A stretch of DNA of 51,602 nucleotides, taken from NCBI GenBank assembly GCA_001873215.1, contig MNYS01000006.1:120839-172440 (forward strand), in the 5' to 3' direction. Position numbers and translations under genes: made by a program. Numbering within the stretch: the stretch's first letter is position 1; each line of letters opens with the position of its first letter. Source of the DNA: Candidatus Levybacteria bacterium CG2_30_37_29 (GTDB lineage Bacteria; Patescibacteriota; Microgenomatia; Levybacterales; GWA1-39-11). The notes beneath the pieces are model-generated. The model saw nothing but the letters and a program-made list of their open reading frames with translations, did no database searches and was not told where the DNA came from. Below are positions 45,210-51,602 of the stretch, one piece after another.

Positions 45210-45878
45210 TTATTTAACAAATACAAATATTGCACTTTTATTATCATGTTCCCATCTGCGATTAAATTCCGCGTTTGGAAGAATTCTTTTTTCTCCAATT
45301 TTTGGATCGTAAATTGTTGTTTCTGTTGAATTTATTTCTTGTAGGGTAACCATGTGTCCGCCGTCAGCCCTGGTCCAGGAAGAAAAAGGAAGAAACACAA
45401 ATAATTTATAAGAAGGATTTGTTTTATTTTTTGTCGTTTTAATTATGTCTGACATTTCAGCAAGAGAAAGAGTTCTTCTATATGCTACTGTGATATCAGA
45501 AGAAGGAAATTTTTGCTTAAATTCAGGCGTGGAAAATACATTTAAAACAAAAGGTAAAACCTTTATTCCCTCGCTATCTCTTTCTGTAAGCCTGTGTTTT
45601 AAAGCGGTTTGCAAAAATCCTTCATATAGTTCCGGTGTGATAGAGGCTCCTGTTATTTCACTGAAAACACTCATAACTGCTGCGCCGACACAATCAGAAC
45701 CATTTCTCTGCATAACTTCATTTATAGGACCAAGAGTAACAGGAATAACGTTCTGATCAGAAGATTTGTGAGATAATTTTTGAACCAATTTTCTTCCCGT
45801 ACCCAATTTCCATGGGGGCATACCGAAAGGAAAGTTTCCTTCAAATCTGTTGTCCATTCCTCCATACATTTTTGGCAA
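45210..45878 (-). CDS. C39-like cysteine peptidase-like protein
   Basis: EVMQRNGSDCVGAAVMSVFSEITG ... GGHMVTLQEINSTETTIYDPKIGEKRIL. Confidence 0.6.
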   Translation of the reverse strand: MPKMYGGMDNRFEGNFPFGMPPWKLGTGRKLVQKLSHKSSDQNVIPVTLGPINEVMQRNGSDCVGAAVMSVFSEITGASITPELYEGFLQTALKHRLTERDSEGIKVLPFVLNVFSTPEFKQKFPSSDITVAYRRTLSLAEMSDIIKTTKNKTNPSYKLFVFLPFSSWTRADGGHMVTLQEINSTETTIYDPKIGEKRILPNAEFNRRWEHDNKSAIFVFVK

Positions 45879-47504: not shown

Positions 47505-47633
47505 AAGATAAGATCGGAATAATAATATCCTCAAGACCATTATAAATCCAACTTGTAACAACCATAAGTAAATAGTTCAAGGCTTATATTTTCAGTATGA
47601 TTTTTGATACACTGGTATATAGGTAAAGAGAAT

Positions 47634-50603
47634 ATGGATGAAGAACCGCAACCATCATCACCATCAAAATTTAGTGGATTAAAAAGAGTGTTTGGTAGGG
47701 CAGAACCTACCAAACCAAATTCTGGCGGTGAAATAAAAGCACCCGCAGTAGAAAATGGCAAGAAGATTGAGGGAGTTGCAACAGACCAGAAATTACTGCA
47801 GTTTTTCTATGAGCTGAAAGGCGTTGATGCTCATGCTATTGCTACTGATAGTTTTCTAGATAAATCCCGTGACGAGTATAATGCAGCATGGTTAACACGG
47901 GAGTTGGTGCAAAATTTTGTTGACCATAACCCTCAATATCCAGGAACACTTGACGGAGTTAGTTTTACTAGCGAGCCTCTGAAAAGTGGTGGAAGAAGAT
48001 TTCGTATTGAAGGTGGTTGGCCTTTTGAAGATCCTACAGGCGTTTTAAGTCCGCATTCGGATAAGCCAGAAGATAGAAATACTGCAGGGGGAAATGGTAT
48101 TGGTCTCAAGCAAACCGCTATTCGTCTGATAAGAGATTTTGGTGTACAAAGATTTGAAATTGATGGTGAAGGCTGGGTTGCTAATTATCGTTTGGCCAAA
48201 GCAGCTGACGTAAATGATGATTGGGCAAATATGCCCGGACAAGTCCCTTTGCATAAAGTTAAACACGACTGGTTATTAGCAGACATTAAAAAGAGCAAAC
48301 CTACGGGTAGAAACGCATATATTATTGAAACAGCTAACCCTGATGTAATCAAAGCACTTGAACAATTACCTACGCTTGGAGTATCTAACGAGAACCCCTA
48401 TCTACAGAATATGGATTTCCAAAATAAGTTTGGAGGTATTAAGTGGCTTCCTAAATCTGAAGGAATTGAGCCAGATAAAGGACGCCTTTTTATTAATGGG
48501 CAGGTCATGAATTATAAAGAAAAAGGCGCTACTGCAGAAGATTATTGGGTAGGTCCTGAATCCGCTACGATTCAGCTTAACAACTTAAAATACAAAATGA
48601 GTATCGATAGACCTCCAGTTAATCCATTTGAACTAAGTCGCTATCTGGATGATATGGTTCAAGCTATGTCAAAAGATGAAATGGTAGAGCAGTTAAAACG
48701 CTCCGAACATTTGTGGGCAGGACATGTAGATTCTAAATATGGAACCGATAGGCAAGGAGCCTTTGTGGTTGTTGAGAAATTAGCAAGGACTCTTCCTTAT
48801 AAAGGTTACGACCGTGGAGAGTGGCAGAAACATTTTGCTGGTAAAAATTATATAGCGCGGGATAGAGGTGTAAGCGACAGCCAGGTAAGAGAATTAGAAG
48901 AGCAGGGATTTATTGTTTGCCCTGGATATTTGGAACAAGTAGGAATGCCGTCAGCTAGCAGTAAGTTAAGCAATGAAGAAACAGCCAGTAATGAAACCCC
49001 ACAAGTTCCTCAACACAAACGAGAACAATTTGTTCAAGAGTATGGTATGGAAGTAGCTTGTGAGGAATTTCCTGATATTAAAGACCCCTCTCAATTCATT
49101 AGCGTGATTAGTAAAAAGTTGGGTGGCCAAGTCACTGCAATAGAAGGAAATGGTAGCAATCCTAATGTTGTTCGTTTGATGTTAAAAGGAGACATACCGA
49201 GAGAATTACTATTTCATGCATTACCAAAGCCAAAAGAAGATAACCAGAAATTAGTATACCTATTAAGAGGAATGGCAGCTTACGGATTAGAGAAAGGTAT
49301 ATTTAAAAAAATATTCACATCACAAGGAGATTTTTTAACAACATTTGGTTTGAATTATGATTTTGTTACTAAAGAAAATAATCTGCTCGTGCGCAATATA
49401 CCAAACGGAAGCGACAAAGGTGTATTCGTAGAAATAGAGTTAAATGATAAATATTTGCAGAAGTTTCAAAATGCTTTTACGCAAGATGAGGCCGCAAGAG
49501 CAAGTGGAAAAACAAAGGAAATGGTATCTAGGGAAGCTCCGTTACCAACCGGAGAACTAAATATCTCCTCAACAGGCAGTGATAGCAAACAATCAGTAGA
49601 AGTAGATATCACTAGAGCGATTGAAGTTAAAGCATGGACTAATGAGCAAGAACAAATTTATCAAGCAGCTGTAAGAAAAAACCCTACAGAATTGTCAGAC
49701 CAAGAAAAACTTATTATTCAGAAACGAGAACAATTAAAACAAGAATTTGGTCGTGTGCCGGTGGCGCAACCTGAAATTCCCGATATTGAAAAGAAAGGAA
49801 ATATTATTCAAAAGGAAGCAACTATGTCTAACTCTGAAAAAACACGAGTATCACAAATGGAAGCTCAATTACCAGGAATACTTGAAGCAGTAAACAAGCT
49901 GGAGGAAATGGTACCAGAGCCAACTGTAGCAGAACTTACTGGACAAAGTCCTGTTGAAAAATACCTACAGTGGCGACAATCTGACCAATTTTATGGTCAA
50001 TTAGGAGATAATGCTGGATACTTAACAGGGAAACATTTAATCGAATTGATTGAAGAACAAAACCAAGCAGATATTTCAAGCGTAGAATCTATCCGTGAAG
50101 AATCACCAGAGGATATAATTCTTGGTGCTCTGCGAAGTAAGCTAAAGAAAATAGTAGAGAGAATGAATCCAGCTGAAGACGAAGTTGATGATTTTGAAAT
50201 TGTTCTTGAGCCAACAGAAAAGCAGCTGGCACAACTTGGGTTATTAAGATTATATTCACAGTTAACTACAAATGTTGCATTACCTAATGACCTTTTCGTT
50301 TATAAGGGAACTGGTAGTAAAGGAATAAATCTTGGTCAAAAGGCGATTGGTATACACGAATCTCTCTTTGGCGTTAAATTCACTGAAGCTATGAGAACAT
50401 TCACACATGAGGTAGCACATAATTATCCTGAAGCTGAAGATCATGGGAACATGTTCCGTCATGCTATGGAATCTTTGTTTGCAGCTACAATTGATAGAGT
50501 CACCAATATAGCCATAAAGTTAGATTCTGGTCAGGCTACGACATCCGAAGAAAGAGTAATTTTGGATATGCAAAGAGAATGGGATAGCATCCTTGCTACA
50601 TAA
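47634..50603 (+). CDS. Large protein with N-terminal GHKL-type ATPase motifs and C-terminal HExxH zincin-like motif
   Basis: WLTRELVQNFVDHNPQ (N-box-like), NTAGGNGIGLKQTAIRLIRDFG (G-box-like), MRTFTHEVAHNYPEAEDHGNMFRHAMESLF (HExxH). Confidence 0.75.
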   Translation: MDEEPQPSSPSKFSGLKRVFGRAEPTKPNSGGEIKAPAVENGKKIEGVATDQKLLQFFYELKGVDAHAIATDSFLDKSRDEYNAAWLTRELVQNFVDHNPQYPGTLDGVSFTSEPLKSGGRRFRIEGGWPFEDPTGVLSPHSDKPEDRNTAGGNGIGLKQTAIRLIRDFGVQRFEIDGEGWVANYRLAKAADVNDDWANMPGQVPLHKVKHDWLLADIKKSKPTGRNAYIIETANPDVIKALEQLPTLGVSNENPYLQNMDFQNKFGGIKWLPKSEGIEPDKGRLFINGQVMNYKEKGATAEDYWVGPESATIQLNNLKYKMSIDRPPVNPFELSRYLDDMVQAMSKDEMVEQLKRSEHLWAGHVDSKYGTDRQGAFVVVEKLARTLPYKGYDRGEWQKHFAGKNYIARDRGVSDSQVRELEEQGFIVCPGYLEQVGMPSASSKLSNEETASNETPQVPQHKREQFVQEYGMEVACEEFPDIKDPSQFISVISKKLGGQVTAIEGNGSNPNVVRLMLKGDIPRELLFHALPKPKEDNQKLVYLLRGMAAYGLEKGIFKKIFTSQGDFLTTFGLNYDFVTKENNLLVRNIPNGSDKGVFVEIELNDKYLQKFQNAFTQDEAARASGKTKEMVSREAPLPTGELNISSTGSDSKQSVEVDITRAIEVKAWTNEQEQIYQAAVRKNPTELSDQEKLIIQKREQLKQEFGRVPVAQPEIPDIEKKGNIIQKEATMSNSEKTRVSQMEAQLPGILEAVNKLEEMVPEPTVAELTGQSPVEKYLQWRQSDQFYGQLGDNAGYLTGKHLIELIEEQNQADISSVESIREESPEDIILGALRSKLKKIVERMNPAEDEVDDFEIVLEPTEKQLAQLGLLRLYSQLTTNVALPNDLFVYKGTGSKGINLGQKAIGIHESLFGVKFTEAMRTFTHEVAHNYPEAEDHGNMFRHAMESLFAATIDRVTNIAIKLDSGQATTSEERVILDMQREWDSILAT

Positions 50604-50694: not shown

Positions 50695-50802
50695 ATGAAT
50701 CTATCTGTTGGAATTGTCGGGTTGCCGAATGTGGGGAAATCCACTTTGTTTAACGCGCTTTTGAAAAAGCAGCATATTATTATCTATGCAAGTATATGTT
50801 AA
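50695..50802 (+). pseudogene. ychF: Truncated N-terminus of YchF/Obg-family GTPase
   Basis: MNLSVGIVGLPNVGKSTLFNALLKKQ then HIIIYASIC*; Walker A GLPNVGKST intact. Confidence 0.85.
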
Positions 50803-51302
50803 GTGAAGAAGAGTTAAAATATTTAAAAAAAATCCCGCAAAATAAAAAGGTAAATTTTTTTCCTTACGATTCTAAAACTACACAACTTGTAGATAATATT
50901 ATTAAAAAAATTAAAATCAAAATTCTTGACCTAGAGATAAAATTTATAGGTGCCAGTGCGCTAAAAATTTCAGGTCAAGGAGATTTTGACATTTATGTTC
51001 TTTGTCAAAGAGAAAAATTTAAACATTATGTTACTAAGCTAATAGATATTTTTGGAAAACCTATTTTTCAGGGTGATTATATTCAATGGGAGTTTAAAGT
51101 TGGCAGTCACGACGTAGAGCTATATTTAACTGATCCGTCTGATGAAACTGTAAAAGACCAATTTAAGATATTTGAAATGTTAACAAAAGACAAAAAACTT
51201 CTTCTTAAATATGAACATCTAAAGGAAGCGGCAAAAGATTTGCCTTACAAAGAATATCAAAGAAAAAAATATGAATTTTATAATAAGTTACTTGATAAAT
51301 AA
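50796..51302 (+). CDS. GrpB/UPF0157-like nucleotidyltransferase-fold protein
   Basis: FIGASALKISGQGDFDIYVLCQ (GS...D.D-like), LLLKYEHLKEAAKDLPYKEYQRKKYEFYNKLL. Confidence 0.65.
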   Translation: MLSEEELKYLKKIPQNKKVNFFPYDSKTTQLVDNIIKKIKIKILDLEIKFIGASALKISGQGDFDIYVLCQREKFKHYVTKLIDIFGKPIFQGDYIQWEFKVGSHDVELYLTDPSDETVKDQFKIFEMLTKDKKLLLKYEHLKEAAKDLPYKEYQRKKYEFYNKLLDK

Positions 51303-51398: not shown

Positions 51399-51602
51399 TT
51401 AGAGCGAATTTTCTCTAAAGTTTTTCAGTAACTCCTTATACATAATACCACCTCTGTTATTAAAACGGAACTCTGATTCTTTTAAGTGGAGAAGAAATTT
51501 GGTTTTATGGATACCATTAAGTTTATTCATCCGTCTTTTAGTATATGACCAAAATGATTCAATCCCATTGACATGGTTTTTTCCTCGGGCAAATTCATTC
51601 TC
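51399..51602 (-). mobile_element. IS1595 (ISXO2-like) transposase C-terminus, truncated by window edge
   Basis: Reverse complement encodes ENEFARGKNHVNGIESFWSYTKRRMNKLNGIHKTKFLLHLKESEFRFNNRGGIMYKELLKNFRENSL*. Confidence 0.85.

Follow-up and report, generated by a model that had tools for sequence, protein, structure and literature searches.

Gene organization and relatives

The window, that is, the whole stretch of DNA analysed (51,602 nucleotides), carries on its forward strand a gene at 47634..50603 that encodes 989 amino acids followed by a stop codon. Its likely start is the ATG at 47634, which stands behind aggtaaagagaat. A TTG at 47604 is an alternative start and would add 10 residues. 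The open reading frame described in the initial annotation is real, but the length of 999 residues given there requires this TTG; counted from 47634, the start coordinate used in the annotation itself, the protein has 989 residues. The observation that both motif-bearing ends lie in one open reading frame is confirmed, and the motifs quoted for them (RELVQNFVDH, TAGGNGIGLKQTA, HEVAH, and DHGNMF) are all present in the protein.

Sequence searches of Pfam, NCBIfam, and the PDB with the window protein alone give no useful match, and the phmmer/hmmsearch matches to HutP and a NUDIX enzyme were dismissed (E ~1). No membrane segment is found in the protein. The AlphaFold model of the full-length chain is poor overall (pLDDT 50.6), with better values for residues 50–250. 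Between the two ends lie an alpha/beta middle domain (49071..49493, + strand, residues ~480–620), where the AlphaFold confidence is mostly moderate to good, and a helix-containing linker (49494..49943, + strand, residues 621–770), which is the least conserved part of the protein and has low pLDDT.

A scan of GTDB species genomes reveals four relatives, so that the family is present in five species including that of the window. Two relatives come from Daviesbacteria (L003, 69% identity; L005, 77%), one from Levyibacteriota (L004, 81%), and one from Nomurabacteria (L006, 44%). The gene is intact in the window, and the Nomurabacteria copy (L006:9983-12883) is intact as well, with 966 amino acids, while the Levyibacteriota copy is cut by the end of its contig. 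A stop or a frameshift is found in the assemblies of two of the four relatives, namely one in-frame TAG in L003 and a frameshift in L005, which may be assembly errors or signs of decay.

The N-terminal half is a predicted GHKL-type ATPase

The GHKL (Bergerat-type) ATP-binding region is located at 47766..48533 (+ strand, residues ~45–300), as supported by hhalign comparison with the phage protein family phrog_6077 and by Foldseek. Its N-box RELVQNFVDH (47898..47927, + strand, residues 89–98) contains the ExxxN signature as E90..N94 and is aligned with REILQNAVD of the phage proteins. It is conserved in L003, L005, and L006, and the L004 copy is truncated before it. The G2 box or ATP lid TAGGNGIGLKQTA (48081..48119, + strand, residues 150–162) has the GxxGxG pattern with GGNGIGLK inside, and it is identical across the same three relatives save for one position at its end. 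In the G1 box, residues 124–137 read RIEGGWPFEDPTG, where a clear DxGxG with its Asp is not recognizable. The phrog_6077 family likewise has no G1-box Asp at the corresponding place. Canonical GHKL ATPases carry this Asp, so that the window protein may differ in how it binds or turns over ATP.

Scanned directly against Pfam, the window protein matches no GHKL domain, and the homology emerges from profile comparison. The hhalign alignment between the window family and eight diverse phage phrog_6077 proteins has a probability of 96% with an E-value of 3.6e-9 and runs co-linearly across residues 82–479. Two of the phage phrog_6077 proteins in turn match Pfam HATPase_c_3 (E 5e-6) and HATPase_c (E 1.3e-3). 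The phrog_6077 HMM matches residues 321–483 of the window protein at E 4.3e-4, and together with hhalign it supports an S5/transducer-like region with the segment that follows (48534..48953, + strand, residues ~301–440). The IDRPP sequence of this region falls beside the invariant Asp-Arg of the phage family in the hhalign alignment, which makes R326 a candidate for the catalytic basic residue, or basic finger, of the S5-like domain. Such a basic-finger role is known for S5 domains (PMC2292703).

The structural model points in the same direction. The pLDDT reaches about 75–85 through much of residues 110–240. In the Foldseek search with the model, GHKL proteins account for nearly all of the best PDB matches, among them Hsp90, TopoVI-B, MORC2, and MutL, with only the first at E < 0.001. 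The best viral matches, from BFVD, are small phage ATPases (E 1.4e-9), followed by RIIA. A Bergerat fold is moderately supported by these matches. The prediction that the N-terminal half is a GHKL-type ATPase module is well supported, and the GHKL assignment made in the initial annotation is strongly borne out by the phrog_6077 alignment, the GHKL proteins found by Foldseek, and the phage ATPases of BFVD.

The C-terminal domain is probably zincin-like

The C-terminal domain (50139..50600, + strand, residues ~836–989) is supported by hhalign to a YgjP-like set, shuffle controls, and the model. Its HExxH motif, HEVAH (50406..50420, + strand, residues 925–929), is followed by DHGNMF (50439..50456, + strand, residues 936–941), whose H937 may be the third zinc ligand. 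The five family members, whose identity over the domain falls to 46%, agree in the His, Glu, and His of HExxH and in H937 and F941, while the Asp preceding H937 varies. Given the length and composition of the protein, an HExxH motif is expected 0.024 times by chance. Two other open reading frames of at least 120 amino acids in the window also contain one, however, so that its presence says little on its own. Here it goes beyond chance because of the invariance of HExxH, H937, and F941 in five members, the low dN/dS of both ends, and profile support for both folds.

All Pfam matches of the C-terminal pieces are below cut-off, and most of them are to zincin families at the correct place, including SprT-like, YgjP-like, WLM, and Reprolysin_3. 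YgjP scores 15.7 bits and WLM 15.1 bits, each against a curated cut-off of 26, and the domain is therefore not filed as YgjP, WLM, or SprT. The HExxHx(5-7)HxxxF pattern of YgjP-like (PF01863), WLM (PF08325), and SprT-like (PF10263) proteins aligns in register with the window domain, which is without the WGSC-type motif that the compared YgjP proteins have in common ahead of HExxH. When aligned by hhalign to a YgjP-like set of 25 proteins from Patescibacteria genomes, the domain gives a probability of 61% with P 7.9e-5, compared with P 0.28 for the reversed control. In this alignment HEVAHN..DHGNMF is in register with HELVHI..NHSKKFW, and H937 is placed, with fitting spacing, on the third-ligand His of the YgjP-like NHSKxFW. 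The hhalign scores are 34.3 and 34.7 for the YgjP-like and SprT-like sets, of which the latter is not independent, most of its members being YgjP-like. The real score exceeds all 60 column shuffles and all 60 shuffles that keep HExxH; when both HExxH and H937 are kept, it exceeds 59 of 60, with one shuffle reaching it.

The AlphaFold model of the domain, built from an alignment of only five sequences, has a pLDDT of 69 and a pTM of 0.65 and places HExxH in a predicted helix. Foldseek with this model finds no significant match. The domain might be degenerate or merely structural and helical, with an HExxH that does not work as a peptidase behind a real GHKL end. The Foldseek search without a significant match, the five-sequence alignment, and the sub-threshold Pfam matches would all agree with such a C-terminus. 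Against it stand the five invariant residues (H, E, H, H, and F), the low dN/dS of the domain, and the in-register alignment to real peptidases relative to shuffled controls, and we consider it decidedly improbable. The C-terminal domain is taken, with moderate confidence, as zincin-like. The earlier proposal of a zincin fold with the His of DHG as third ligand is moderately supported by the invariance and the in-register alignment.

Distribution and selection

Within Patescibacteria, members of the family are few and scattered. In the class, four of 382 genomes contain the gene, the window's own included. The phylum sample contains it in one of 382 genomes, which is the window's own, and the order of the Nomurabacteria genome in one of 347, which is again that genome itself. 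A full-length homologue is absent from 50,697 phage records and 72,556 plasmid records. Of the two Daviesbacteria copies, L005 is more similar to those of Levybacteria (77–81%) than to its counterpart L003 (71%), and this placement suggests lateral movement of the gene.

Pairwise dN/dS against three relatives is 0.08–0.09 over the alignable length. By part, it is about 0.07 in the GHKL region, 0.06–0.07 in the zincin-like domain, and about 0.18 in the linker, values that are approximate as synonymous sites are near saturation. Both ends are clearly under strong purifying selection.

Genomic context

A search for co-occurring genes over the five loci, as suggested in the initial annotation, reveals no conserved neighbour or operon; they have no neighbour in common. 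The IS1595 element noted beside the gene is borne out by a transposase fragment at the window edge (51399..51602, − strand; PF12762, E 0.0011, below the curated cut-off). Where "gene debris" was described, the neighbours examined are, in addition to this piece, mostly small intact open reading frames. Directly downstream of the gene, a 168-residue GrpB-like protein (50796..51302, + strand; E 8.1e-5, just below cut-off) is encoded, which is not common to the other loci. A 222-residue protein at 45210..45878 (− strand) has weak similarity to C39 peptidases (E 0.0014, below cut-off).

PADLOC matches the window protein to no known defence family at meaningful E-values. Its matches to PDC-M26B and Cas4 are weak, and the one on the window protein was dismissed since it falls in the helical linker. 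Neither a described defence family nor a conserved defence neighbourhood was found for the protein at the five loci. Defence-like company is seen at only one or two of them. In L003 alone, the genes after the homologue encode an AriA/PtuA-like AAA ATPase and a large serine recombinase, and in L004 a Fic protein lies about 1 kb downstream. Judged from the open reading frame sequences, the L005 copy lies among polysaccharide genes and the L006 copy beside type IV pilus genes. The stretch after the homologue in Daviesbacteria (L003:13172-17060), which comprises a 158-residue protein, the AAA ATPase, and the recombinase, is a possible mobile defence island. Such surroundings suit an accessory gene acting on its own, and they argue only weakly for a role in conflict.

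The main rival to such a role is a cellular maintenance protease, in which an ATP clamp would hand misfolded or DNA-bound proteins over to a SprT/Wss1-like peptidase, as for example in DNA–protein crosslink repair or chaperone-linked quality control. Some SprT/YgjP/WLM-type domains act on DNA-bound proteins, and the GHKL-S5 modules of MutL and topoisomerases are DNA clamps. Both properties suit this explanation, as do the alignment of the zincin-like domain with SprT/YgjP/WLM-type domains, the strong purifying selection, and the absence of conserved defence neighbours. However, four genomes of 382 in the class and one of 382 in the phylum sample are too few and too scattered for housekeeping quality control, and the pattern of lateral transfer also speaks against it. 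We regard a maintenance protease as unlikely.

Comparison with known systems

The nearest relatives found for the ATPase are the phrog_6077 proteins, stand-alone phage GHKL ATPases of about 360–410 residues, such as QEQ95023.1 of Erwinia phage pEp_SNUABM_01. They share with residues 82–479 of the window protein the N-box, the G2 box, the S5-like segment with its invariant Asp-Arg, and the segment that follows. There the phage proteins stop, whereas the window protein continues with the middle domain, the linker, and the zincin-like domain. The family is widespread, with a member in MN184887.1 (125094-126242) and in 111 other phage records, and the examined members are without the canonical G1-box Asp while keeping the invariant Asp-Arg in the S5-like part. 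No annotated peptidase was found among the gene neighbours of phrog_6077 in eight phage regions, of which one (L076) is almost unannotated. A metallopeptidase of MN184887 and the adjoining 476-residue protein were considered as a split GHKL/peptidase pair and rejected, as the 476-residue protein is an HNH endonuclease.

T4 RIIA-like proteins likewise join a GHKL fold at the N-terminus to other parts at the C-terminus (PMC7824862). The BFVD structure matches link the model of the window protein to them. A full-length sequence match to RIIA-like proteins is absent, and a RIIB partner is found beside none of the copies examined. We know of no HExxH domain in RIIA.

These similarities raise the alternative of a domesticated or phage-borne counter-defence factor, a relative of phage GHKL proteins and RIIA with a variable C-terminal part that is here a peptidase. 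In its favour, the closest GHKL relatives identified are phage proteins that stand alone. The phage and plasmid records searched contain no full-length homologue, and the loci examined lie on chromosomal contigs close to cellular genes, which makes such an origin distinctly unlikely.

The window protein resembles MORC and paraMORC proteins in its GHKL and S5 module. paraMORC3 has a C-terminal effector domain, a RecB-like nuclease, and belongs to a sporadic, laterally mobile family (PMC2292703). In contrast, the putative effector of the window protein is peptidase-like rather than a nuclease, and restriction-modification genes are not found alongside.

Proposed function

Our tentative reading, to which we give somewhat less than an even chance, is a cytosolic, single-gene, ATP-gated metallopeptidase composed of a GHKL-S5 module and a YgjP/WLM/SprT-like zincin. 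For this enzyme we infer dimerization, ATP binding, zinc binding, proteolysis, and the coupling among them. H925, H929, and H937 would serve as zinc ligands and E926 as general base. ATP binding would close the N-terminal domains of the dimer, as in MutL, Hsp90, and MORC, and the movement would be transmitted via the middle domain and the variable linker. It would thereby grip a target and either admit it to the peptidase or activate the peptidase, which would then cut the protein target.

An ATP-driven clamp with a protease had been proposed in the initial annotation for a defence, conflict, or quality-control system. The architecture is supported, strongly for the GHKL end and moderately for the zincin end. 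The role can only be given conditionally, the PADLOC search being negative, no neighbour being conserved, and defence-like company occurring at one or two of five loci. Inter-element conflict, either defence or counter-defence, is plausible and ranks first, with protein quality control second. A conflict role fits the rarity, the patchiness, the lateral movement, and the phage kinship of the ATPase. The protein may even belong to a novel, ATP-gated class of patescibacterial conflict systems made of a single protein, in which a phage-type GHKL-S5 clamp is combined with a target-cleaving zincin effector, a possibility that we hold with low confidence.

Topoisomerases, Hsp90, mismatch repair, and several conflict systems are powered by GHKL-S5 modules, which mostly work alongside nucleases or partner proteins. 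If real, a single chain combining a GHKL module and a peptidase would tie ATP-driven clamp closure directly to proteolysis. It would further provide a testable function for phrog_6077, a large and unexplained phage GHKL family, and would add a candidate conflict or quality-control enzyme to uncultured bacteria with genomes of about 1 Mb. While the modules are known, we could not find their combination described: a search of the open-access literature gave no description of a GHKL–zincin/SprT fusion or of an Hsp90-like ATPase fused to an HExxH/metallopeptidase domain.

Other GHKL proteins of Patescibacteria

Among the HATPase_c_3 loci of Patescibacteria that were examined, HExxH within the GHKL-bearing open reading frame is found in only one protein, a partial control as many of these loci are short. 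This protein, of 1822 residues, is encoded in genome G209 (L016:3678-9146, − strand) and has two HATPase_c_3 domains (E 9e-13). It ends in THERQHN..THNDTFF, that is, HExxH followed by His and Phe. Its sequence shares no significant homology with the window protein outside the N-box region, and a scan of 191 genomes from the phylum sample finds no relative other than itself. The protein carries another HExxH close to its N-terminus, which shows that this motif can arise by chance. By its motif, the C-terminus of the 1822-residue protein may be a candidate zincin in the same domain order as in the window protein. This hints that the GHKL–HExxH architecture arose twice, and the combination proposed for a conflict system may have arisen more than once, as this unrelated double-GHKL protein also ends in HExxH..H. 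In genome G087, a 503-residue GHKL protein with weak similarity to phrog_6077 (L014:1390-2901, + strand) adjoins a Dcm-like DNA cytosine methylase, a pairing that resembles restriction-modification-linked GHKL systems.
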